Assembly (NCBI RefSeq): GCF_000246855.1
Contig: NC_016609.1
Coordinates: 8,940,744 to 9,004,743 of the forward strand
Direction of reading: 5' to 3'
DNA length: 64,000 nucleotides
Origin: Niastella koreensis GR20-10
GTDB lineage: Bacteria; Bacteroidota; Bacteroidia; Chitinophagales; Chitinophagaceae
Below are positions 24,307 to 37,283 of the stretch, piece by piece (positions within the stretch are counted from its first letter, which is position 1; every line of letters begins with the position of its first letter). The notes below the pieces were generated by a model. The model was not told the DNA's origin. It saw only the letters and a list, made by a program, of their open reading frames with translations, and did no database searches. The position numbers and the translations under genes are program-made.

Positions 24307-25731
24307 ATGACAACAGCGGCGTTATTAAAACCTAAGACATTGCAGTTAAGGAAAATTTTTCCTGTCATCATTGTGTTAATCAGCTTATCGCTGATTGGAA
24401 CCATTTACGTACAGTACAGCTGGTTACGTACCATGCTGGTTGACAAGCATGAAGAGTTCAGGTATAAACTGATCCGTGGTATTAACGAGGTAGGGGTGAA
24501 CCTGATGGAACAAAAGAACTCCCTGCCATCGCTTAAGAACTACCGCGTGCGTCCCGATTTCAGCCTGCAGGCAGAACAGTTCAGATCAGAACTGATGCGC
24601 CCCCCAACCATTGCCCAGAAGTTTACTGAACAGGAAGTGGCGGACAAACTACACAAAGCCTTTGCTTCGCAGGGGTTAAAAGAGGTGAAGTTTGAGTTTG
24701 CCATTACCAGCAATGTAAACCTGCTTTCATACGAAATAAAATCACGGGCCTTTTTAAACCAGGTAGAAGATACGGCAAGCGACCGCAACCTGGTGTTATA
24801 TTATATTTTTCAGCCGCCCAGTGGCAGTGATCTCGAGAACCTGGTGCCCGAAGAAGTAATGACGGTCATAGTTCCCAATGTAAAAAAAGTAGTCCTGAAC
24901 GATATGCGGTGGATGATTGTGGGTGCGGTATTCTTCACCCTCATGATCATCACGGCCTTTTATATTACGGTAAATGCGTTGTTGCGACAGAAGAAACTAA
25001 GTGAAATAAAGAACGACTTTATCAATAATATGACGCACGAGTTCAAAACGCCGCTGGCCACCATTTCGCTGGCGGTGGATGCCCTGCGCAACGATAAAGT
25101 GGCCCAGGACCGCGAGAAAATGAACTACTTCAGCAGTATTATTAAAGAAGAGAACAAACGCATGAACAAGCATGTGGAAACCATTCTGCAGGCAGCCGTA
25201 ATGGACCGCCAGGAATTGACGCTGAACAAGGTGCCGCTGCATGTACACAATCTTATTCATGAGATCATGGATAACTACAAACTGCAACTGGAAGAAAAAG
25301 GCGCCCGTGCCGAACTGAGCCTCGATGCCCGTTTCGATTTTGTGGAAGCCGACCAGGTGCACTTCCGTAACCTGATCTCAAACCTGGTTGACAATGCGGT
25401 TAAATATTCAAAGGACAATCTCTTAATAAAAATCGCCACCTATAATACCAATAAGTTCATTGGCATACGCATTGAAGACAATGGTATTGGTATGAGTAAA
25501 GAAACCGTGAGGCGGATATTTGAAAAATTCTATCGCGCCCACACGGGTAATCTCCATAATGTAAAAGGCTTCGGTTTGGGCTTAAGCTATGTTAAGACCG
25601 TAGTTGATGCTCATGATGGTAAGATCAAGGTTGACAGTATACTGGGCAAAGGCTCGGCCTTCAACCTCGAAATACCGCTGATCAAAGACAGTGCTACTGC
25701 CGAAACAACAAACAGCCATCGCCATAACTAA
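24307..25731 (+). CDS. Sensor histidine kinase (orphan)
   Basis: 474 residues. A first membrane segment lies at about 18-36 (VIIVLISLSLIGTIYVQYSWL), a periplasmic sensor part at about 40-195, and a second membrane segment at about 200-222 (WMIVGAVFFTLMIITAFYI). The HisKA domain carries the phosphoacceptor His244 in MTHEFKTPLATI. The HATPase domain shows the N box NLVDNAVKYS, the G1 box DNGIGM and GFGLGLSYV. The layout resembles Bacteroides RprX-type kinases. No response regulator lies next to it; the following gene, queA, is on the opposite strand and overlaps its 3' end by 38 bases. The signal is unknown. Confidence 0.92.
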   Translation: MTTAALLKPKTLQLRKIFPVIIVLISLSLIGTIYVQYSWLRTMLVDKHEEFRYKLIRGINEVGVNLMEQKNSLPSLKNYRVRPDFSLQAEQFRSELMRPPTIAQKFTEQEVADKLHKAFASQGLKEVKFEFAITSNVNLLSYEIKSRAFLNQVEDTASDRNLVLYYIFQPPSGSDLENLVPEEVMTVIVPNVKKVVLNDMRWMIVGAVFFTLMIITAFYITVNALLRQKKLSEIKNDFINNMTHEFKTPLATISLAVDALRNDKVAQDREKMNYFSSIIKEENKRMNKHVETILQAAVMDRQELTLNKVPLHVHNLIHEIMDNYKLQLEEKGARAELSLDARFDFVEADQVHFRNLISNLVDNAVKYSKDNLLIKIATYNTNKFIGIRIEDNGIGMSKETVRRIFEKFYRAHTGNLHNVKGFGLGLSYVKTVVDAHDGKIKVDSILGKGSAFNLEIPLIKDSATAETTNSHRHN

Positions 25732-26923
25732 GAAAACGGAATTCGTTTTCTAACGCATACGTATATATTTTTCGCCAGTCGTTACCCACAAAGGCTGCTA
25801 CCAATAGCAGCAGGGTGGATTGCGGCTGGTGAAAATTGGTCACCAGCGCCCGTGGTATTTGAAAGGTATAACCCGGGGCAATCAACAAAGAAGTTTTGGT
25901 GATAATGCGGTCCGTTGAATGCGCGTGCATATACTGCAACAGGCTTTCCAGGGCTGTTTTGGCGGCAACCCGTTTCCCCTCCATTTCATACGGGTCCCAC
26001 TGATGCACTACCAGCTCTTCCAACGGAAGATTGGGTTGATGCACCGTTTTCACCCCCAGCCAGTACAGGCTTTCGATAGTACGCAGGGAGGTGGTGCCCA
26101 CTACTGTGATGTGTTTATCGAGGTACTGTAAAATACGTTCAATAGCGCCGGTACTAACATCAATGAACTCTGCATGCATGGGATGTTCGCCCATGGTTTC
26201 GCTCTTCACCGGTTTAAAGGTGCCGGCGCCTACATGCAGGGTAACATATTCCCGTTGAATGTGTTTATGGTCCAGCTGGTTAAACAAAGCATCGGTAAAA
26301 TGCAAACCTGCTGTGGGGGCAGCCACCGAACCTTCGGTATTGGCATAAATGGTTTGATACCGGTCGCTGTCGGCCTGTTCCGCTTCGCGTTTTATATACG
26401 GGGGCAGGGGAATATTGCCGGCAACATGTAATACTTCTGCAAAGGTGAGCCCTTCGGGCGTCCAGGATAATTCAATCGCAAAGCTGTCTTTTTCTTTACC
26501 CAGGTAGCGGGCGTGCAGGATAATCTCCTCACCGTTCCAGCTCATTTTCTTTTCCAGGATCTGACCGGGCTTCCACTTGCTGGCGCCCCCGATAAGGCAG
26601 ATCCAGGTAACGCTACCCTTTTGGGTCATGGCAGTGGTCATGTCGGCATACTGCGGCGGCGGTTCCAGGCAAAAGATCTCCACTACGGCGCCGGTTGGTT
26701 TTTGAAACAACAGGCGGGCGGCCACCACTTTGGTGTTATTGAAAATCAGCAGGGAATCGGGCGGTAAGTGCTGGTAAATGTCCCGGTAAATGCTTTCCTG
26801 AATAGCTCCTTCTTTGTAAATGAGGAGGCGGGAACTGTCTCTTTCGGGGAGCGGGTACCGGGCAATTTGTTGCTCAGGCAGCTCATAGGTAAAATCGTGA
26901 ACTGATAGTTCTTTTGGATGCAT
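25694..26923 (-). CDS. queA: S-adenosylmethionine:tRNA ribosyltransferase-isomerase (QueA)
   Basis: Transfers and isomerises the ribosyl part of SAM onto 7-aminomethyl-deazaguanine in tRNA, giving epoxyqueuosine. The N-terminus FTYELPEQQIARYPLPERDSSRLL, VFNNTKVVAARLL, GSVAAPTAGLHFT, LHVGAGTFKPV and TNFHQPQSTLLLLVAAFVG are all QueA signatures. The ATG at 26923 gives 410 residues, starting MHPKELSVHDF. A longer frame back to 27013 would run through a TATCTTTG promoter box at 26962-26969, so the shorter start is preferred. No other queuosine genes are nearby. Its 3' end overlaps the histidine kinase gene tail to tail. Confidence 0.95.
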   Translation of the reverse strand: MHPKELSVHDFTYELPEQQIARYPLPERDSSRLLIYKEGAIQESIYRDIYQHLPPDSLLIFNNTKVVAARLLFQKPTGAVVEIFCLEPPPQYADMTTAMTQKGSVTWICLIGGASKWKPGQILEKKMSWNGEEIILHARYLGKEKDSFAIELSWTPEGLTFAEVLHVAGNIPLPPYIKREAEQADSDRYQTIYANTEGSVAAPTAGLHFTDALFNQLDHKHIQREYVTLHVGAGTFKPVKSETMGEHPMHAEFIDVSTGAIERILQYLDKHITVVGTTSLRTIESLYWLGVKTVHQPNLPLEELVVHQWDPYEMEGKRVAAKTALESLLQYMHAHSTDRIITKTSLLIAPGYTFQIPRALVTNFHQPQSTLLLLVAAFVGNDWRKIYTYALENEFRFLSYGDGCLLFRQ

Positions 26924-26961
26924 CTTATTAGGCGGCCAACTGCCGCGGTTTTGATGAGGTG

Positions 26962-26969
26962 CAAAGATA
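26962..26969 (-). promoter_or_regulatory. -7 box TATCTTTG of queA
   Basis: Exact TAnnTTTG match on the minus strand, 38 bases before the queA ATG at 26923. It supports that start over the longer reading frame. Confidence 0.5.
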
Positions 26970-27184
26970 AGCGACTCCGCGTGAAATTGCAATGGGGTGG
27001 TGGTCGGGGGCAATTAAGCAGATGGAGGCATGCAAATACCGGCAGTGACAATTGAAATGCTGTGTGTACAAGGGTTTTATCAGTACAAGTGACAATTAAA
27101 CCTAACTAAAAATATGTATAAAAACTATCAACAATTAGTAAGAAGTTGATAAGGATTTAGTTTTTATTTAATTCAAAAATAATA

Positions 27185-27715: not shown

Positions 27716-28132
27716 TCAGCGGCCCCTTAATTCTTTTCTAACAACCAGTTTAAGTCCGCTCCATTGGTCTGAAACGGCACAAACTTTTACATCAACCAGG
27801 TCGTGTTGGAGGGCATAATTGCGGATGGTATCTTCTGTAACATCAGTGGCAATGCCGGCGCTTTTTTTATACCAGCTTACCCAGATTATTACGGTAGGGT
27901 TGGCTTTGTAAATAGCAACCAAATCTTTAAAAATGGCAATGAATTGACTGGCAGAAGTAACAAAGGCATGAACAAAATGAGGGGTTTCCCTGGCAGGTTT
28001 TTTTACCAGCTGCGGTCGGATGTCGGTTATCAACCAATCGAAATAGGCCGCCGGTGCATTGAACAGCAATACTTTCATTGAAGGAGTAATGCCCAGTTTT
28101 TTGATTAATGGCGTGCCGGAGTAACCTGGCAT
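27716..28132 (-). CDS. DUF3052-like protein
   Basis: 138 residues. The start MPGYSGTPLIKKLGITPSMK and the SWYKKSAGIATDVTEDTIRNYAL stretch match the DUF3052 group of small cytosolic proteins. LVDVKVCAVSDQWSGLKLVVRK near the end is also typical. Function unknown. ATG at 28132. Single gene, divergent from mraZ across a 586-bp regulatory gap. Confidence 0.8.
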   Translation of the reverse strand: MPGYSGTPLIKKLGITPSMKVLLFNAPAAYFDWLITDIRPQLVKKPARETPHFVHAFVTSASQFIAIFKDLVAIYKANPTVIIWVSWYKKSAGIATDVTEDTIRNYALQHDLVDVKVCAVSDQWSGLKLVVRKELRGR

Positions 28133-28294
28133 TGAGTGATTTTAAAATTATGAATATGGAATGCCGAATTTTAGAGATTGGAATCGGGTTTTTAAATTAT
28201 GAATTCCAAGACGAACGTTTGCAATCATCAATTGAAATTTTTGAATAAGCAAACCGGTACCTGGTAACTGGCAAACCGGTAACTCACAAAGTCC

Positions 28295-28674
28295 TCCCAT
28301 TTTCTCCCACCAATCCGGTTTTCCGATTCAGAATTGACACTTTTCCCCACCAAACCAATCAGCCCGATAGCCATTTCCCCCTTTTTACCACCATAATAAA
28401 CGGTCACTTAGGAGCTATTTTCGGGCATTTTTGGACCGTCTATGGTCCCTTTTGGTCGTTTCGAAGGCAAAAAACAGCACCAAAATCACACTTTCCCATC
28501 AAATTCACAGCTTACGCACAGTTATGCACATGTATCCACATGCTTATGCACATGCTTTTGGCTGACTAATAGGTGGAAACCCGCAGAAACCAATGGTATT
28601 CACCTGTATACAAATAAAATTCCTTGTGGAAAAAATAATTTTTCACAATCTAAGTAAGAAAGTGGGAAAAAGTG
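28295..28674. promoter_or_regulatory. MraZ-like repeats upstream of mraZ
   Basis: Three similar sites: GTGGGAGAAAATGGGA on minus at 28295-28310, GTGGGGAAAAGTG on minus at 28338-28350, and GTGGGAAAAAGTG on plus at 28662-28674, 45 bases before the mraZ ATG. Known MraZ proteins bind TGGGN repeats spaced five bases apart upstream of their own gene. The first site has TGGGA-N5-TGGGA exactly. Autoregulation of the division cluster is inferred. Confidence 0.5.
28512..28633. promoter_or_regulatory. Cluster of DnaA-box-like 9-mers (candidate origin or DnaA-controlled promoter)
   Basis: TTATGCACA at 28522-28530 and 28544-28552 fits the DnaA consensus TTWTNCACA perfectly. TTACGCACA at 28512-28520 and GTATCCACA at 28532-28540 have one mismatch each. 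Starts are spaced 10, 10 and 12 bases. A fifth perfect site, TTTTCCACA, lies on minus at 28625-28633, beside an AT-rich stretch (28631-28660). The rest of 28133-28718 shows no gene. Confidence 0.55.
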
Positions 28675-28718
28675 TTATTTTGTGTAGGTATTAGACAAAT
28701 AGATGCAACTCATTGTAA

Positions 28719-29180
28719 ATGATACAATTTCTCGGAGAATACGAAGCAACCCTGGACGCAAAAGGGCGTTTTCTCCTACCGGCAGGCATTAAAAAGCAGA
28801 TCCCGGAGGATGCTGGAGAGCAATTTGTCATAGCTAGAGGTTTTGAAAAATGTTTGACTTTATATCCCAAAAAAAACTGGGATCCTATACTGGCCGAACT
28901 GAGTAAAGTTAGCGAATACAAGGCCGAAAATAGAGAGTTCTTAAGATATTTCACAATGGGTGCTTCACTATGTGATCTGGATTCTGCAGGAAGAATGTTA
29001 GTACCACCCAATTTAAAAGCCCACGCGGGGCTCGAAAAAGATATAGTACTGGTTTCTGTTATCAATAAAATTGAAATCTGGGATAAAGTTAAGTACCAAC
29101 AGTTCTTTGAGTCTTTTACACCGGAAAAGTACAGCGATCTGGCAGAGCGGGTAATGGGTGGTCAAAATACACAAATGTAA
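28719..29180 (+). CDS. mraZ: Division/cell wall cluster regulator MraZ
   Basis: 153 residues with two AbrB-like MraZ halves: residues 1-75 (MIQFLGEYEATLDAKGRFLLPAGIKKQI, then FVIARGFEKCLTLYP) and 76-150 (FTMGASLCDLDSAGRMLVPPNLKAHAGL, then DIVLVSVINKIEIWD). MraZ is a DNA-binding repressor of its own operon that also associates with the nucleoid. It is the first gene of the dcw cluster; rsmH starts three bases after its stop. MraZ-like repeats lie just upstream, consistent with autoregulation. Confidence 0.95.
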   Translation: MIQFLGEYEATLDAKGRFLLPAGIKKQIPEDAGEQFVIARGFEKCLTLYPKKNWDPILAELSKVSEYKAENREFLRYFTMGASLCDLDSAGRMLVPPNLKAHAGLEKDIVLVSVINKIEIWDKVKYQQFFESFTPEKYSDLAERVMGGQNTQM

Positions 29181-29183
29181 TTT

Positions 29184-30107
29184 ATGAGTGAGCCTGTTTA
29201 CCATGTACCGGTTTTATTGCAAGAGGTGATCGACGGTTTACACATCCGCCCCGATGGGGTGTATGTTGATTGTACCTTTGGTGGCGGCGGACATTCCCTG
29301 GAAATTCTCAAACACCTCAATGCCGATGGGCGGATGGTTGTTTTTGACCAGGATGCAGATGCCCGGAAAAATGTGCCAGCTGATGATCGTATCATTTTCG
29401 TTCCGCACAATTTCAGGCATTTGCAGCGGTTTTGCCGGCTGCATAAAATAACCCAGGTAGATGGCATTCTGGCCGACCTTGGGGTTAGCAGTCACCAGTT
29501 CGATACCGCCGACCGCGGGTTCAGCACCCGTTTTGAAGGCGACCTGGATATGCGGATGGACCAACGCCAGGAACGCACCGCTTTTGAAGTGGTGAATACC
29601 TACACCGAACAGCAGTTGCACAAATTGTTTGAACAGTATGGCGAGGTTACCAATTCAAAAACACTGGCCAAAACCATTGTTCAGGTTCGAAAAACCGTTT
29701 CGCTTAAAACCATCTCTAACTTTAAACAGGCGCTTCATTCCGTGGTGAAAGGAAATCCTAACAAGTACTTTGCCCAGGTATTTCAGGCTTTGCGTATTGA
29801 AGTAAATGATGAACTAGGCGCATTGAAAGACATGCTGCAACAGGTTCCCCCCCTGTTAAAACCCGCCGGACGTGTAGCAATTATAACGTTTCACTCACTG
29901 GAAGACCGGATCGTAAAGAACTTCTTTCGCAAAGGGAATTTTGAAGATGAAGAGGTGGAAACCGATGCATTTGGCCGGGCAACAACCACACCACCACTCA
30001 AAGCAGTAACAAAAAAGCCAATCGTTCCTACAGATGCGGAGATGAAGAGAAATCCCAGAGCACGTAGTGCCAGGTTGAGGGTAGCGGAGAAGATAGAGGA
30101 ACAATAG
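29184..30107 (+). CDS. rsmH: 16S rRNA (cytosine(1402)-N(4))-methyltransferase
   Basis: 307 residues. SAM-dependent methylation of C1402 in 16S rRNA. Family marks: YHVPVLLQEVIDGL at the start, the SAM loop VDCTFGGGGHS, the acidic residue in VVFDQDADA, GILADLGVSSHQFD, RGFSTRFEGDLDMRMD and FHSLEDRIVKNFF. It lies three bases after mraZ. The following 239 bases hold low-complexity sequence (CAATAGGCAATAGACAATAGGC type) before ftsL. Confidence 0.97.
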   Translation: MSEPVYHVPVLLQEVIDGLHIRPDGVYVDCTFGGGGHSLEILKHLNADGRMVVFDQDADARKNVPADDRIIFVPHNFRHLQRFCRLHKITQVDGILADLGVSSHQFDTADRGFSTRFEGDLDMRMDQRQERTAFEVVNTYTEQQLHKLFEQYGEVTNSKTLAKTIVQVRKTVSLKTISNFKQALHSVVKGNPNKYFAQVFQALRIEVNDELGALKDMLQQVPPLLKPAGRVAIITFHSLEDRIVKNFFRKGNFEDEEVETDAFGRATTTPPLKAVTKKPIVPTDAEMKRNPRARSARLRVAEKIEEQ

Positions 30108-30346
30108 GCAATAGACAATAGGCAAAAGAAAAATAGATTTTGAGCGAAGCAGAAGAGAAGTCGTGAAACTGGGATGTAGGGTACACTTGCCAATTGCAAA
30201 TTGTCGATTGACAATTGATTTAAGAGTGTTCTCATAATAAAGGGTATTAGAAATTGCAATTATTCTAATTTAATTACGCCTCGTGAATTAAGCTTTCATT
30301 AGCGGTTAGACGGATAGCACCTGTCTGACCGCTATTTGATTAAAAA

Positions 30347-30688
30347 ATGAGTGAAGAAAAAGAAATATCGCGCAGAAGAAGACAACGGAAGCGGTTGTTC
30401 GGGTACAGGTGGATAGTGAAGAATCTGCCTTTCTTCCTTTTCCTGGCAATGCTGGCCATTGTGTACATCGCGAACGGGCATTATGCCGATAACACGGTAC
30501 GCAACATCAACAAAGTGAACCGCGAGCTGAAGGAACTGCAATACGAATACAATTATCTGAAAGGCCAGGTAATGTTTCGCAGCAAGCAAAGTGAAATGGC
30601 GAGGTCAGTTGAACCATTGGGGCTAAAAGAGTTGACCGTTCCGCCGGCGATGTTAGTGGATTCAACGGGAAATGAAGAGAGAAATTAG
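30347..30688 (+). CDS. ftsL: FtsL-like cell division protein
   Basis: 113 residues: a basic cytoplasmic start (SRRRRQRKRLFGYRW), one membrane span at about 26-44 (LPFFLFLAMLAIVYIANG) and a periplasmic coiled coil (NTVRNINKVNRELKELQYEYNYLKGQVMF). Size, topology and position between rsmH and the transpeptidase gene fit FtsL, the divisome scaffold that bridges FtsQ and FtsI/FtsW. FtsL sequences diverge strongly, so the call leans on context. ATG at 30347. Confidence 0.85.
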   Translation: MSEEKEISRRRRQRKRLFGYRWIVKNLPFFLFLAMLAIVYIANGHYADNTVRNINKVNRELKELQYEYNYLKGQVMFRSKQSEMARSVEPLGLKELTVPPAMLVDSTGNEERN

Positions 30689-30792
30689 GAATGAAGAATT
30701 AAAAATGAAAAATCAGAAAGTAAAAGGATAGTAGTGGGAATGGAATATAGTGAGGCAATTGCCGATTGCGGATTGCCGATTGCCGATTGAAC

Positions 30793-32916
30793 ATGGAAGT
30801 TAAAAAGGACATATTATGGCGGGTGTACGTAGCCTTTCTGGGCATCGTGGTTTTCAGTTTGTTAATACTGGGCCGCGCCGTGTACATTCAGCAGGTGCAG
30901 GGGCCTTACTGGCGTGAACAGGCAAAAGAGCAACAACAGAAATTTGTAGAGATAGATGCACAACGCGGCACCATTTACAGCGAAGACGGCCGCATGCTCA
31001 GCACCTCTACGCCGTATTTCGATATCTATATTGATTTTGCAGCAGAAGGATTGCGCGATAAAGGTGGAAAGCGGTTTGAGGATAACCTGGATTCATTATC
31101 CATAGGACTGGCAGCCATGTTTCCTGAAAAAAATATAGCATCGTGGCGTAAAGAGTTGAAAACCGGTTACCGGAAAAAGAACCGGTACTATTTGTTAAAA
31201 AAGAACCTGACATTCCAGGAATATAAACAGTTACGTAGTTTGCCATTGGTGCGTGAAGGAAAAAACAAAAGCGGTTTTATTGCTGATGTAAAAGACAAAA
31301 GAATGAACCCCTTTGGCCTGCTGGCAAACAGAACCATCGGGTTATCACGCGAATACATGGATAGTGGCGGTGTAATGCGTAGTATGAATGTGGGTTTGGA
31401 AAAAACATACGATGAACAACTACGCGGTGAAAGTGGAAAACGTTTGATGAGAAAAATTGCCGCCGGCGTGTTTGCCCCGGTAGATGGCTCGGAAATTGAA
31501 CCACAGAACGGAAGAGATATTATTACCACCCTGGATGTAAACATCCAGGACATTACGGAGAATGCTTTGAAAAACGTGCTGGAAGCAAATCAATGTGAAT
31601 ATGGCACTTGTGTGGTAATGGAAGTAGCAACCGGAAAAATAAAGGCCATTGCTAACCTGAGCCGCAGGGAGGATGGCAGTTACTGGGAAAACTTTAATTA
31701 CGCCATTCAGGCATCGGAGCCAGGTTCAACATTTAAACTGGCAACCATGTTGTCGCTGCTCGAAGACCAATTGGTAACTTTGCAGCAACACATCGATCTC
31801 GAAGGCGGAAGCTGGAATGTAAACGGAAGAACGGTATACGATACAGAAGATCATGGAACAGACGCCACCGTAAAACATGCATTTGAACTAAGCTCGAATG
31901 TAGGTATGGCAAAACTGGCAATGACCTACTACGGAAAAAATCCGACCCGGTTTGTAAATCACATTAAGAAACTGCGATTCGATCAGCAAACAGGTATTGA
32001 CCTGATGGGCGAATCAAGACCAGTAGTAAAAACGCCCAAATCAAAAACATGGAGTTCCACGTCGTTACCATGGATGAGTTTTGGGTACGAAGTACTGGTG
32101 AGCCCATTGCAAACATTGATGTTATACAATGCAGTGGCGAACAATGGCAAAATGATGAAGCCTTACCTGGTAAATGCAGTAATGGAAAATGGGGCGAAGG
32201 TGAAGGAGAATCAGCCGGAGGTGTTGGAGGAAGCAATTTGCAGCGACAAAACATTGAAGCTCTTAAAAGAATGCCTGGAAGGTGTTTGTACCGATGGCAC
32301 TGCCGCTGAATTACTAAGAGGCGCGCCGTATAAAGCAGCCGGTAAAACCGGAACCGCTTTAATGGCCAATGGTCCCAACGGGTACGCGGATAAAATTTAT
32401 CAGTCGTCATTCGCTGGTTATTTTCCGGCCAACCATCCGCAATACAGTTGTATTGTAGTGATCCGGAACAAACCACATGCACCGGTTTATTATGGCGCCA
32501 AAATAGCCGGACCGGTATTTAAAGAGATCGCTGATAAATTGTATGCGCAACATGCCGATCAGGGCATCAGACAACTGGCTATTAAAAAAGACAGCAGCAA
32601 TTATCAATACGCCGGCGCTACTGAAGATATTAAAGAGGTGATGGAAACGCTGAAGATGAAGTACCGTGATTCGGCAAAAGCAGATGAATGGTCGAAGCTG
32701 GCAATGGTGAATGAACAACCGGTGTTAAGCAAAAGAACGGTAGCGAATAATATTATGCCCGACATGCGGGGGATGGGTTTAAAAGACGCCTTGTTTTTGC
32801 TGGAGAACAGAAAATTGAAAGTAGCGTTTCATGGCCGCGGAAAAGTAACAAGCCAGAGCATTGAACCGGGCACCTATGTAAACGCACATCAAACAATAAA
32901 CCTGGAATTGAATTAA
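30793..32916 (+). CDS. ftsI: Division transpeptidase (penicillin-binding protein, FtsI type) with PASTA domain
   Basis: Cross-links septal peptidoglycan. 707 residues from ATG 30793 (MEVKKDILW); a TTG 27 bases upstream lies inside a GATTGCC repeat and is rejected. One membrane span at about 9-32, an N-terminal dimerisation domain from QRGTIYSEDGRML onward, then a transpeptidase domain with catalytic Ser312 in GSTFK (SxxK), SSN at 367-369 and KTG at 518-520. The last ~65 residues, from NNIMPDMRGMGLKDALFLLENRKLKVAFHG, form a PASTA domain, found in SpoVD/PBP2-type enzymes. murE starts 13 bases downstream. Confidence 0.95.
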   Translation: MEVKKDILWRVYVAFLGIVVFSLLILGRAVYIQQVQGPYWREQAKEQQQKFVEIDAQRGTIYSEDGRMLSTSTPYFDIYIDFAAEGLRDKGGKRFEDNLDSLSIGLAAMFPEKNIASWRKELKTGYRKKNRYYLLKKNLTFQEYKQLRSLPLVREGKNKSGFIADVKDKRMNPFGLLANRTIGLSREYMDSGGVMRSMNVGLEKTYDEQLRGESGKRLMRKIAAGVFAPVDGSEIEPQNGRDIITTLDVNIQDITENALKNVLEANQCEYGTCVVMEVATGKIKAIANLSRREDGSYWENFNYAIQASEPGSTFKLATMLSLLEDQLVTLQQHIDLEGGSWNVNGRTVYDTEDHGTDATVKHAFELSSNVGMAKLAMTYYGKNPTRFVNHIKKLRFDQQTGIDLMGESRPVVKTPKSKTWSSTSLPWMSFGYEVLVSPLQTLMLYNAVANNGKMMKPYLVNAVMENGAKVKENQPEVLEEAICSDKTLKLLKECLEGVCTDGTAAELLRGAPYKAAGKTGTALMANGPNGYADKIYQSSFAGYFPANHPQYSCIVVIRNKPHAPVYYGAKIAGPVFKEIADKLYAQHADQGIRQLAIKKDSSNYQYAGATEDIKEVMETLKMKYRDSAKADEWSKLAMVNEQPVLSKRTVANNIMPDMRGMGLKDALFLLENRKLKVAFHGRGKVTSQSIEPGTYVNAHQTINLELN

Positions 32917-32929
32917 TAAAACAGATAAC

Positions 32930-34393
32930 GTGACACTGCAGGATATATTATATAAAGTAAGCATTCGCTCGGTACAGGGTAACACCGGTATACCCGTGCG
33001 TGACCTGCAGCTGGATTCACGGAAGGTAAGCGAAGGATCGATTTTCATTGCAGTGAAAGGTACTGCCAATGATGGTCATCAATACATTGACCAGGTGATT
33101 ATGCAGGGTGCAGCAGGTATTATCTGCGAAACCATGCCGGCTGAATTGAAAGAAGGAATAACCTATGTGCAGGTAGAGAACAGTGCAGCCGCAGCCGGTT
33201 ATATGGCGCATAACTTTTACGGGCAGCCATCCGAAAAGATCCAGCTCGTAGGCGTTACCGGCACCAACGGTAAAACCACCATTGCAACCTTATTATTCAA
33301 GCTCTTTACATCATTGGGATATAAGTGTGGTTTGTTAAGCACGGTTCAAAACCATATTGGTAATGAAGTGGTGCCAGCTACCCATACCACGCCGGATGCG
33401 ATTTCGCTGAATGCCTTGCTGCAACAAATGGTGAACAGCGGCTGCTCACATGTATTCATGGAAACCAGCTCGCACGCCATTCATCAGCATCGCATCACCG
33501 GGTTAAAGTATGCAGGCGGTTTGTTCAGCAATATCACCCACGATCACCTGGATTATCACAAAACATTTGATGAATACATCCGGGTAAAGAAATCGTTCTT
33601 CGACTCGCTGCCTTCTGACGCATTTGCGATTTCAAATGCCGATGATAAACGTGGTCAGGTGATGCTGCAAAACACCCATGCGCACAAATACCTGTACAGC
33701 CTGCGCACGATGGCCGAGTTCAAAGGAAAGATCCTGGAAAACAGGCTTACCGGTTTGGTTATGACCATCAATGACCAGGAAGTACACTTCCGCCTCATTG
33801 GTGAGTTCAATGCCTACAACCTGCTGGCCGTGTACGGCGCCGCTATCTGTTTGGGTGAAGATAAACAGGAAGTATTGCGGTGTTTGAGTGAGATCACCGG
33901 TGCAGAAGGCCGCTTTGATTATATTATTTCGCCCAACCAGCATATAATCGGGATTGTAGATTATGCGCACACCCCCGATGCATTGCTGAATGTGTTGCTG
34001 ACTATAAAAAAATTACGCGAAGGGCACGAGCAGATCATCACGGTGGTAGGTTGTGGCGGTGACCGCGACAAAACCAAACGCCCGGTGATGGCAGAAGTGA
34101 CCTGCGAGCACAGTGATAAAGTAGTGTTCACCAGCGATAACCCACGCAGCGAAGATCCGATGCAGATTTTAACTGACATGGAGACCGGGTTGAACACCGC
34201 CGCAAAAAGAAAATATGTATCAGTGGTTGATCGCAAGGAAGCCATTAAACTGGCAGTGAGCATGGCAAAACCGGGAGACATTGTATTGATAGCAGGCAAG
34301 GGCCACGAAAAATATCAGGAGATCAAAGGAGTTAAACATCCTTTCGACGATAAGCAGGTGATGCGGGAAATGTTTGAGCTGTATGAAAAATAG
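32930..34393 (+). CDS. murE: UDP-MurNAc-L-Ala-D-Glu:meso-diaminopimelate ligase (MurE)
   Basis: 487 residues, GTG start. Adds the third residue of the peptidoglycan stem in the cytosol. The N-terminal substrate domain (RDLQLDSRKVSEGSIFIAVKG) is followed by the P-loop GVTGTNGKTTIA, HTTPDAISL, METSSHAIHQHR and NITHDHLDYHKTFDEY, and the C-terminal domain with GRFD and DYAHTPDAL. The specificity loop reads TSDNPRSEDP: DNPR is the meso-DAP form, while lysine-adding enzymes carry DNPA or similar. So the organism probably has meso-DAP peptidoglycan. Confidence 0.97.
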   Translation: MTLQDILYKVSIRSVQGNTGIPVRDLQLDSRKVSEGSIFIAVKGTANDGHQYIDQVIMQGAAGIICETMPAELKEGITYVQVENSAAAAGYMAHNFYGQPSEKIQLVGVTGTNGKTTIATLLFKLFTSLGYKCGLLSTVQNHIGNEVVPATHTTPDAISLNALLQQMVNSGCSHVFMETSSHAIHQHRITGLKYAGGLFSNITHDHLDYHKTFDEYIRVKKSFFDSLPSDAFAISNADDKRGQVMLQNTHAHKYLYSLRTMAEFKGKILENRLTGLVMTINDQEVHFRLIGEFNAYNLLAVYGAAICLGEDKQEVLRCLSEITGAEGRFDYIISPNQHIIGIVDYAHTPDALLNVLLTIKKLREGHEQIITVVGCGGDRDKTKRPVMAEVTCEHSDKVVFTSDNPRSEDPMQILTDMETGLNTAAKRKYVSVVDRKEAIKLAVSMAKPGDIVLIAGKGHEKYQEIKGVKHPFDDKQVMREMFELYEK

Positions 34394-34426
34394 CGATGAC
34401 GAGAGCGTACACCTAAAAATACCAAT

Positions 34427-35713
34427 ATGCTGTACCATTTAATTGATTGGCTGAAGGCTTTGGGGGTTAAGATTCCGGGGAATGCACTGTTTCAGTTCAT
34501 TACATCCCGGGTATTACTGGCGGTTATTTTGTCGCTGGTGATATCAGCCGTGTTTGGAAAAAAGTTCATCAATTACCTGCGTAAAAAACAGGTAGGGGAA
34601 ACAGTGCGCGATCTGGGCCTGGCGGGCGAGCAACAGAAAAAAGGAACGCCAACAATGGGTGGTTTCATTATCATCACCGCCATTCTGGTTCCCACGCTGC
34701 TCCTGGCCGATCTGAATAAGGCATATATCCGGCTCATGCTGTTTGCCACCGTATGGCTGGGCCTGATAGGATTTATAGATGATTACCTGAAACTGCGCGC
34801 CAAAAAGCTGGCCCAGCAACAAGGTATTGCATATAAGAAAGGTGATAAAGACGGGTTGGCCGGTTGGTTTAAAATTGGCGGTCAGGTAGTGCTGGGTTTT
34901 GTGGTAGCCATGACGCTGTTGTTCAATAACAATACCAAAGCATGGCGCGAGTTTACCGGTGATAATTTACCCTCCGATACCAGTACGGTAAAGATCCACC
35001 GGGTGCCCATCGATAACCGGGAGCGGGTATTTGTGGAAGCAAATGAACCCATTACCACCATCCCGTTTGTAAAATCGCACGAGTTCAACTATTCAAAGCT
35101 GTTACCAGCCGGGTTACGCGCTTTTACGTGGATCCTGTATGCGATCATTGTAATTGTGATTGTAACTGCCGTATCAAACGGCGCCAATATAACCGATGGA
35201 ATTGATGGGTTGGCAACGGGAACGAGTGCCATCATTGGGGCGTGTTTGGGCATATTTGCGTATGCCAGTGGCAACATCAGGTTTGCAGAATACCTGAACA
35301 TCATGTATATCCCCAACCTGGGTGAGCTGAGTATTTTCATTGGTGCGTTAATTGGGGCTTGCGTAGGGTTTTTGTGGTACAATGCCTATCCCGCGCAGGT
35401 GTTTATGGGTGATACGGGAAGTTTGACCCTGGGCGGTATCATTGCAGCGCTGGCGATCATTGTGCGGAAAGAATTACTGATCCCGATCTTCTGTGGCGTA
35501 TTCCTGGTAGAGAATCTGAGTGTGATCTTACAGGTATCGTATTTCAAATACACAAAACGGAAATATGGTGAGGGCAAACGAATCTTCCTGATGAGCCCGC
35601 TGCACCACCACTACCAGAAACTGGGGTATCATGAGTCGAAGATCGTAACAAGGTTCTGGATTGTAACTATTCTGTGCATCGTGTTTGCGATAGTGACTTT
35701 AAAAGTAAGATAA
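34427..35713 (+). CDS. mraY: Phospho-N-acetylmuramoyl-pentapeptide transferase (MraY)
   Basis: Inner-membrane enzyme that makes lipid I from undecaprenyl phosphate. Marks: [26 protein letters not shown] (the DDY metal site), [33 protein letters not shown] and [11 protein letters not shown]. About ten hydrophobic spans. At 428 residues it is longer than the ~360 of E. coli; the extra is an external loop at about residues 175-225 ([10 protein letters not shown]... to ...[10 protein letters not shown]), as usual in Bacteroidota. The following 211 bases before murD hold no gene. Confidence 0.97.
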
Positions 35714-35942
35714 TAAAAAGCGTGATCGGTTAGCCGGTACCTTAAAAAACATAGTAAGTGCATTACTGAAAAACCACCACTCTGAATTTCCACTTAAGGA
35801 AAACCAGTCATAGTAGTAGGTAGGAGTGTGGTAGAGCAGTAAAGATTCAAACTATCGAAGAACCCCCTTTAATCCGGTTTATCCCTGATTAATAATAAAG
35901 TTGTCCCGATAACCTCGGGATGTAATGGAGTTAGTAATTACA

Positions 35943-37283
35943 ATGAGTAAGCGTTTGGTAATACTTGGGGCCGGCGAAAGCGGCGTAGGCACTGCCATCC
36001 TTGGCAGGAAGCAGGGGTATGATGTATTTGTATCGGACGGTGGGCCAGTTAAAGAGAAGTACCAGGAAGAGCTGAATAAGTATGGAATAGCGTGGGAAGC
36101 AAATCAACATACCGAAGAAAAGATTTTGAATGCAGATGAAGTGATGAAGAGTCCGGGCATTCCTGAAAAGAACGAGTTGGTAAAGAAGATCAGGAAAAAA
36201 GGAATACCGGTTATCAGTGAAATTGAATTTGCATATCGCTACAAAGGCAACAGTAAGATCATTGGCATTACCGGTAGTAACGGAAAAACAACTACGACGT
36301 CGCTCATGTACCACATTTGCAAAACAGCAGGGTTGGACTGTGCGCTCGTAGGAAACATCGGGTATTCATTTGCGAAACAGGTAGCGGAAGATCCAAAGCC
36401 ATTGTATGTGGCCGAGATCAGCAGCTTTCAGTTAGATGATATCCAAACGTTCAGACCGGATGTAGCAATACTCACCAATATCTCAGAAGACCATTTGGAT
36501 CGCTATGATTACCGGTTCGAGAATTATATACACAGTAAGTTCAGGATTGCGGAGAACCAAACAGCGCAGGACTATTTCATTTACTGTGCCGATGACCAGG
36601 TGACCATGCAATACTTAGAGAAATATTCCATCAAATCTAACCCATTACCATTCAGTATGAGTAAAGAATTACCCCAGGGCGGCTTTATCAGGAACGGACA
36701 GATGACTGTAACAGTTGACGATGAGAAGATGCAAATGAATGTGAGCGATTTTACATTAAAGGGCAAACACAACCAGAATAATACAATGGCAGCAGCATTA
36801 GGTGGTGCAACGATGGGGATCCGCAAGGAGAAGATCCGCGTAGCCGTTCAAACATTTGAGTCGCTGGCACACAGAATGGAGCCGGTGTCTACAGTGCGTG
36901 GTGTTGAATTTATCAACGACAGCAAAGCCACCAATGTGAACAGCACCTGGTTTGCGCTGGAAAGCATGGAGCGCCCTACTATTTTGATTTTGGGTGGAGT
37001 AGATAAAGGAAATGATTATTCAGTTCTGTTAGAACTCGTTCGCGAAAAAGTAAAAGCGATCGTTTGTCTGGGAACTGATAATCGCAAAATACACGAAGCA
37101 TTTAAAAACGATGTACAGCTGATAGTGAATACCGGCAGTGCAGACGAAGCAGTAAAAGCGGCATTTCATTTTGCCAGTCCCGGCGATACCGTGTTGTTAA
37201 GTCCGGCCTGCGCCAGCTTCGACCTGTTCAAGAACTATGAAGATCGTGGCGATCAGTTCAAACAGGCCGTTCGCGAATTATGA
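35943..37283 (+). CDS. murD: UDP-MurNAc-L-Ala:D-glutamate ligase (MurD)
   Basis: Adds D-glutamate to the peptidoglycan precursor. Starts MSKRLVILGAGESGVGTAILG at ATG 35943; an ATG at 35925 would add six residues (MELVIT), which is less typical for the family. P-loop GITGSNGKTTTTS, the catalytic stretch ISSFQLDDI, NISEDHLDRYD, LKGKHNQNNTMAA, FINDSKATN and LSPACASFDLFKNYEDRGDQF. About 446 residues, the normal length. It follows mraY after a 211-229 bp gap and precedes ftsW by 68 bases. Confidence 0.96.
   Translation: MSKRLVILGAGESGVGTAILGRKQGYDVFVSDGGPVKEKYQEELNKYGIAWEANQHTEEKILNADEVMKSPGIPEKNELVKKIRKKGIPVISEIEFAYRYKGNSKIIGITGSNGKTTTTSLMYHICKTAGLDCALVGNIGYSFAKQVAEDPKPLYVAEISSFQLDDIQTFRPDVAILTNISEDHLDRYDYRFENYIHSKFRIAENQTAQDYFIYCADDQVTMQYLEKYSIKSNPLPFSMSKELPQGGFIRNGQMTVTVDDEKMQMNVSDFTLKGKHNQNNTMAAALGGATMGIRKEKIRVAVQTFESLAHRMEPVSTVRGVEFINDSKATNVNSTWFALESMERPTILILGGVDKGNDYSVLLELVREKVKAIVCLGTDNRKIHEAFKNDVQLIVNTGSADEAVKAAFHFASPGDTVLLSPACASFDLFKNYEDRGDQFKQAVREL

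Follow-up and report, generated by a model that had tools for sequence, protein, structure and literature searches.

Binding of DnaA to the ftsL promoter region has been reported in Bacillus subtilis (Goranov 2005, cited in a passage of PMC8203912), and neither ftsL nor mraZ appears in the main text of an in vitro genome-wide study of that species (PMC4447404). The ftsZ promoter of Caulobacter crescentus is DnaA dependent (Hottes 2005, as cited in the same passages), and the DnaA boxes that lie upstream of Escherichia coli ftsZ, within ftsQA, are described there as irrelevant to ftsZ transcription. In mycoplasmas as in E. coli, the cluster of division and cell wall (dcw) genes is autoregulated by MraZ (PMC8475190; Eraso 2014, as cited). 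In the sections of PMC8959179, PMC12494982, and PMC10449156 that bear on the subject, mraZ and DnaA boxes are treated separately, and a section of PMC4446571 deals with the E. coli mioC promoter. No report of DnaA boxes before mraZ in Bacteroidota was found among the open-access papers listed, which is weak evidence of novelty.

The window, a 64,000-nucleotide stretch of the Niastella koreensis GR20-10 chromosome, contains a tandem array of five co-directional DnaA-box units on the plus strand (28501..28552, steps of 11, 10, 10, and 12 by direct reading) ahead of mraZ. The units are AAATTCACA (28501-28509, at -218 from the mraZ ATG), TTACGCACA (28512-28520, -207), TTATGCACA (28522-28530, -197), GTATCCACA (28532-28540, -187), and TTATGCACA again (28544-28552, -175). 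A gap of ~70 bp separates them from a perfect box in the opposing direction, TTTTCCACA (28625-28633, minus strand, at -94), which lies in a conserved AT-rich block (28599..28646, -120 to -73), and a seventh box, TTTTTCACA (28639-28647, plus strand, at -80), is perfect here and less conserved. The preliminary description had noted four plus-strand boxes with starts 10, 10, and 12 apart and a fifth on the minus strand; their coordinates were confirmed, and two further units, AAATTCACA and TTTTTCACA, belong to the same cluster. The former has two mismatches to TTWTNCACA, and yet its place is conserved in the genus.

Downstream of the array, three units that contain GTG follow one another at 10-bp steps (AAGTGGGAAA AAGTGTTATT TTGTGTA; 28660..28686, plus strand) and form a putative MraZ operator, recognized by its conservation in the genus and its motif likeness. 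These repeats fit AAAGTG[T/G], the MraZ motif given for Mollicutes in a part of PMC8475190, which may differ in this host. Then follows mraZ itself (28719..29180, plus strand; PF02381, E 1.5e-33), the first gene of the dcw cluster, whose start continues on the same strand over 29184..37283 as a run of ORFs, some with Pfam matches: rsmH/mraW from 29184 (Pfam), a short ORF in the ftsL position from 30347 (by appearance and gene order only), a PBP/ftsI-like gene from 30766 (Pfam PBP transpeptidase), a murE-like gene from 32930 (Pfam Mur ligase, the exact ligase name resting on appearance and gene order only), a mraY-like gene from 34427 (appearance and gene order only), and a murD-like gene from 35925 (Pfam reports the Mur ligase family for dcw ORFs, and the name murD comes from appearance and gene order only). 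On the other side, queA (25694-27013; Pfam Queuosine_synth) and a 138-aa ORF from the ORF list (27716..28132) are on the minus strand, so that the divergent layout described earlier holds on Pfam evidence for queA and mraZ, and the DUF3052 label attached to the 138-aa ORF found no Pfam match at E 1e-5. A sigma-70 scan gave no plus-strand match between 28398 and mraZ, and thus no promoter was placed; a search of 28100-28800 for a known RNA element in the mraZ leader gave no Rfam match up to E 0.1.

Compared with the systems above, the locus shares with B. subtilis ftsL the placement of DnaA (here predicted) at a division-gene promoter region, with the difference that the region here is the head of the dcw cluster before mraZ and carries a five-unit phased array plus an opposing box. 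As at C. crescentus ftsZ, the initiator protein would be tied to division-gene expression, although that case concerns another phylum and another gene, and mraZ is not mentioned in the relevant passages of PMC8203912. E. coli likewise has DnaA boxes in its dcw cluster, but there they lie within ftsQA, whereas here they are intergenic and conserved. The MraZ-type operator downstream of the array recalls the autoregulation of E. coli and mycoplasmas; no DnaA array is mentioned for those systems, and the word DnaA is absent from PMC8475190.

The boxes are unusual in their crowding, not in their number. Perfect boxes in the whole window (7 versus 8.65 expected) are not above chance. The 260 bp before mraZ, in contrast, are crowded above chance, as would be expected of an oriC: they have a DnaA-box score of 11 against a shuffle mean of 1.48 and maximum of 8 (0/5000 shuffles reach 11), and they rank first among 15,300 equivalent segments covering 2.0 Mb of the 9.03-Mb chromosome. 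The pattern TTATNCACA-N(1-30)-TTATNCACA on one strand occurs a single time in the 9.03-Mb genome, at the mraZ array, as does a three-unit 10-bp pattern with one mismatch allowed, and the reversed control patterns (tandem pair and three-unit) have zero matches in the whole genome. Pairs of TTATCCACA within 30 bp also had 0 matches in the genome, that pattern being too strict. Perfect tandem pairs are found upstream of mraZ in the single-contig relatives G013 and G027 as well; such pairs are present in 5 of 11 genomes, at mraZ in 2 of those, and in G031, of the same family, only elsewhere.

Conservation in the genus was assessed with nine aligned sequences, our own and eight others (genus member G008 has no mraZ match); close relatives among the matches listed are Niastella and Longitalea. 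All nine align without gaps from the array to the mraZ ATG, with the five array units, some of them imperfect, at identical places. Mean column identity is 50% from -400 to -300, 55% from -300 to -222, and 89% in the array, followed by 64% in the spacer, 91% in the block that holds the -94 box, and 98.5% in the putative MraZ operator (columns -60 to -31). The nine columns of the -94 box are invariant in 9/9 sequences, and the seventh box is perfect in 5/9. Our strict unit finder (NNNTNCACN, steps 9-13) recovers five units in five of the nine, four in one, and three in three; our own unit TTACGCACA fails its T4 rule, and unit 5 is without a core base in one member (TTATTAACA, L094). The TTAT half of the units is largely kept. 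The 9-mers are thus conserved in relatives, with spacing, direction, and distance to mraZ retained.

The arrangement extends through the family. We examined the best 80 of at least 491 relatives by MraZ similarity; as these named loci include same-genus species and many Chitinophaga, they are not independent, and their kinship was checked with one genome per family genus (n = 22). One locus with 48 bp upstream (L200) was left out, giving n = 79. Box scores, to which MraZ repeats reading as one-mismatch boxes contribute in every group, are above those of shuffles (p <= 0.05) in 76/79 named loci (mean 7.2 versus 1.2) and 21/22 family genera; the three failing loci retain the -94 box and two weak units. 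At least three phased units were found by the strict finder in 52/79 named loci (shuffles 0.03%) and in 11 of the 22 genera (shuffles 0%), at least two in 18 of the 22 (shuffles 0.9%), and at most one in the remaining 4. With a less strict finder, in which a skipped unit is tolerated, at least three units are obtained in 61/79, with steps mostly of 10 (66) or 11 (63). The opposing box is present in 76/79 named loci (shuffles 0.4%), in which TGTGGAWAA stands at -92 to -98 as TGTGGAAAA (66 loci) or TGTGGATAA (10 loci), and in 19/22 genera (shuffles 0.2%). Box density is highest within 300 bp of mraZ on its upstream side and falls to 0.2-0.6 per 100 bp per bin farther upstream. A mechanically called ORF of at least 90 aa lies upstream of mraZ in 76 named loci, the nearest being on the minus strand in 57 and on the plus strand in 19. 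Some of these ORFs may be spurious, and the largest group of related ones comprises 27 loci; the array is independent of any one fixed neighbor gene.

Beyond the family the array is not found. For the order we used 18 genomes of other families, a set that omits G056 (weak match), G058 (second of its family), G049 (entered as L114), and G036 and G039 (without a mraZ match). Their score is 4.4 versus 1.2-1.3, with 9 or 10 passing p <= 0.05 depending on the shuffle run; none of the 18 has three or more phased units, and the opposing box is present in 6 (shuffles 0.6%). For the class, 110 genomes had a mraZ match, and we took 40 of them, each from a different family; the score is 3.2 versus 1.3, 12 or 13 pass p <= 0.05 depending on the shuffle run, even two phased units occur in 0/40, and 5/40 have the opposing box (shuffles 1.5%). 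The plus-strand motif TTWTYAACA is found in 27/40 of these other Bacteroidia families, in 1/18 order genomes, and in none of the family sets. It is often AGTTTTCAACAA, is one base off a DnaA box, and stands ~60-105 bp before mraZ (L231-L270), immediately ahead of MraZ-type repeats in the cases inspected. The idea that TTTTCAACA takes the place of the DnaA box in other Bacteroidia found no support, since paired sites occurred in 1 of 10 genomes (8 of the 10 from other families). GTGG repeats like those of the putative MraZ operator are seen in many of the 40 families. In one Bacteroidia sequence (G111:C1:1457722-1458158), the mraZ match is split into two pieces that overlap, and one of them contains an internal TGA.

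The start of chromosome replication can probably be placed elsewhere. The chromosome is one contig of 9,033,684 bases and is numbered from dnaA, whose ORF starts at base 99; the mraZ site, at 8.9693 Mb, is 64.5 kb short of dnaA. GC skew, sampled over 2.0 of the 9.03 Mb, is mostly positive from ~7.84 Mb across the numbering origin as far as ~2.74 Mb and mostly negative over the remainder, with the sampled minimum at ~7.84 Mb, 1.13 Mb from the mraZ site. At this large-scale flip lies the second-densest box cluster (7,836,190-7,836,740; L123 of our genome G000, outside the window), in the 570 bp that separate nadA from a ppiD-like gene, with the end of mnmG ~2.6 kb off. The region is conserved in 10/10 genus sequences and has TTATCCACG, followed 10 bp on by TTTTCCACT (nine sequences) or TTTTCCACC (one); on the other strand, boxes are followed by a TAATAATAATAG run (nine sequences; our own has TAATAGTAATAG) adjoining AT-rich DNA. 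Inspection by eye alone showed a TAATARTAATAG run next to boxes and AT-rich DNA at 7.8362 Mb in all ten sequences, and no conserved equivalent of the TAATARTAATAG type at mraZ, where the AT-rich block lies at the -94 box. Known origins have boxes followed by a DnaA-trio-like run and an AT-rich unwinding element. The 7.836-Mb region appears to resemble this box and DnaA-trio anatomy (the trio is named in a part of PMC7561715), and it is probably the oriC of this genus, 1.2 Mb from dnaA. An oriC at dnaA was considered and rejected, there being no lasting skew change and, upstream of dnaA (around 1 and 9,033,684), no comparable DnaA-box cluster; accordingly, classical DnaA autoregulation is not evident here.

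Large-scale skew was also followed, by sparse sampling, in two single-contig relatives. In G013, where the skew is weak, 12 stretches put the sign change between the samples at 3.0 and 4.0 Mb; the ppiD-like gene of this genome is at 3.71 Mb and its mraZ at 2.21 Mb. In G027, 8 stretches put the change between 1.62 and 2.40 Mb, and the two genes are at 2.27 and 2.76 Mb. Over the 600 bp ahead of the ppiD-like gene, the box score is 14 in G013, 12 in G023, 7 in G031, 6 in G018, 3 in G030, and 1 in G027. As the tandem pairs of G027 that are not at mraZ lie at 2.376 Mb, ~106 kb from the ppiD-like gene and inside the flip interval, the origin need not adjoin that gene everywhere.

Several features point to DnaA as the protein that reads the array. 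Every unit varies at position 5, and 94% of 252 units have A or T at position 3; judged from the letters, this variation follows the DnaA consensus TTWTNCACA, and since units were picked on T4 and CAC6-8, those positions prove nothing. The host DnaA has a Bac_DnaA_C domain (PF08299, E 1.7e-30) with the motif GGRDHTTV, which we take to be the box-recognition signature. The probable oriC uses the same type of box as the array, two of them 10 bp apart in 10/10 genus sequences. Conserved upstream boxes in relatives and a canonical box-recognition domain in the host DnaA are both what would be expected of a DnaA-regulated promoter, and the second of the two readings in the preliminary description, a DnaA-controlled promoter, gains support from the conserved spacing, direction, and distance to mraZ of the 9-mers. 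We therefore consider it quite probable that DnaA oligomerizes on the array and regulates the dcw cluster from beside the putative MraZ operator, and so ties division to initiation.

Chief among the rival binders is MraZ, for which the array would be a distal operator: read as its reverse complement, TGTGNATAA every 10-12 bp, it resembles the GTG repeats of the MraZ box, both showing GTG at ~10-bp steps, and an E. coli MraZ site has been reported to overlap the mioC DnaA box (in a part of PMC4446571). However, the base after GTG in the 252 units is G in 42%, A in 33%, C in 17%, and T in 7%, so that about half have A or C where the Mollicutes motif, which may differ here, has G or T; this argues, though not decisively, against MraZ on the array. 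The retention of the TTAT half in the genus is likewise not what an MraZ operator would predict, and other Bacteroidia families keep MraZ-type repeats without a phased array. We regard a distal MraZ operator as unlikely.

Sites of the datA and DARS kinds serve DnaA titration or ATP hydrolysis. The array could be such a site, setting DnaA activity rather than regulating the dcw cluster, and a dense array away from oriC is what this would need, but a titration site could equally lie in some other place, whereas here the array keeps a constant distance from the mraZ ATG throughout the genus, next to an unconserved upstream flank, and the opposing box stays next to the putative MraZ operator; this explanation, too, is improbable. 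Less probable still is another DNA-binding protein, neither DnaA nor MraZ, as the reader of the repeats: the unit is looser family-wide than the strict consensus (position 1 is T in 50% and C in 32%, position 2 T in 57% and A in 40%) and MraZ repeats share the 10-bp GTG rhythm, but the variation at positions 3 and 5 is that of the DnaA consensus, boxes of this kind occur at the probable oriC, and the host DnaA carries the recognition signature.

That the mraZ site is itself the chromosomal oriC, the other reading offered in the preliminary description, is hardly credible: the densest box cluster of the examined 2.0 Mb, divergent flanking genes, the AT-rich block, dnaA 64.5 kb away, a local skew dip to the left of mraZ (-0.031 to +0.022 at -120 to -70 kb, then +0.068 and +0.118), and a G027 skew that flips across the 20 kb around mraZ (-0.052 to +0.042) speak for it, but beyond ~120 kb to the left the skew is again positive, mostly so back to ~7.84 Mb, the second-densest cluster there is conserved throughout the genus, and the large-scale sign changes in G013 and G027 bracket the ppiD-like gene, not mraZ. 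The rise to the right of the local dip fits the co-directional dcw genes. Of the findings that were to count against any role of the site, the skew minimum does lie elsewhere, with a genus-conserved box cluster beside it, and the origin reading fails on this point; the densest cluster within the 2.0 Mb remains the mraZ array, and its 9-mers are conserved. The array is thus very probably not oriC, and with replication probably starting elsewhere, it most likely lets DnaA control division genes.

Closely spaced imperfect boxes favor cooperative DnaA oligomers, and DnaA on the array would for this reason probably be in the ATP form. ATP-DnaA would load cooperatively on the array and reach the consensus -94 box near the promoter, where it may activate or repress the transcription of mraZ and the dcw cluster, alongside MraZ autoregulation, so that dcw output would follow the level of ATP-DnaA and hence the time of replication initiation. 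More tentatively, and with somewhat more doubt than confidence, we suggest that in Chitinophagaceae an ATP-DnaA filament on the phased array acts together with MraZ at a composite operator to set dcw timing. Under such a composite operator, the array would have been built on an older single opposing box, kept by some other families of the order, and most other Bacteroidia would fill the place of that box with TTWTYAACA.

When bacteria divide relative to the initiation of replication is an old open question, and the array is a compact, conserved candidate link between the two in a phylum for which no such work was found among the open-access papers listed. If DnaA does regulate the dcw cluster from this array, it would constitute a direct, conserved initiation-to-division link in Bacteroidota.
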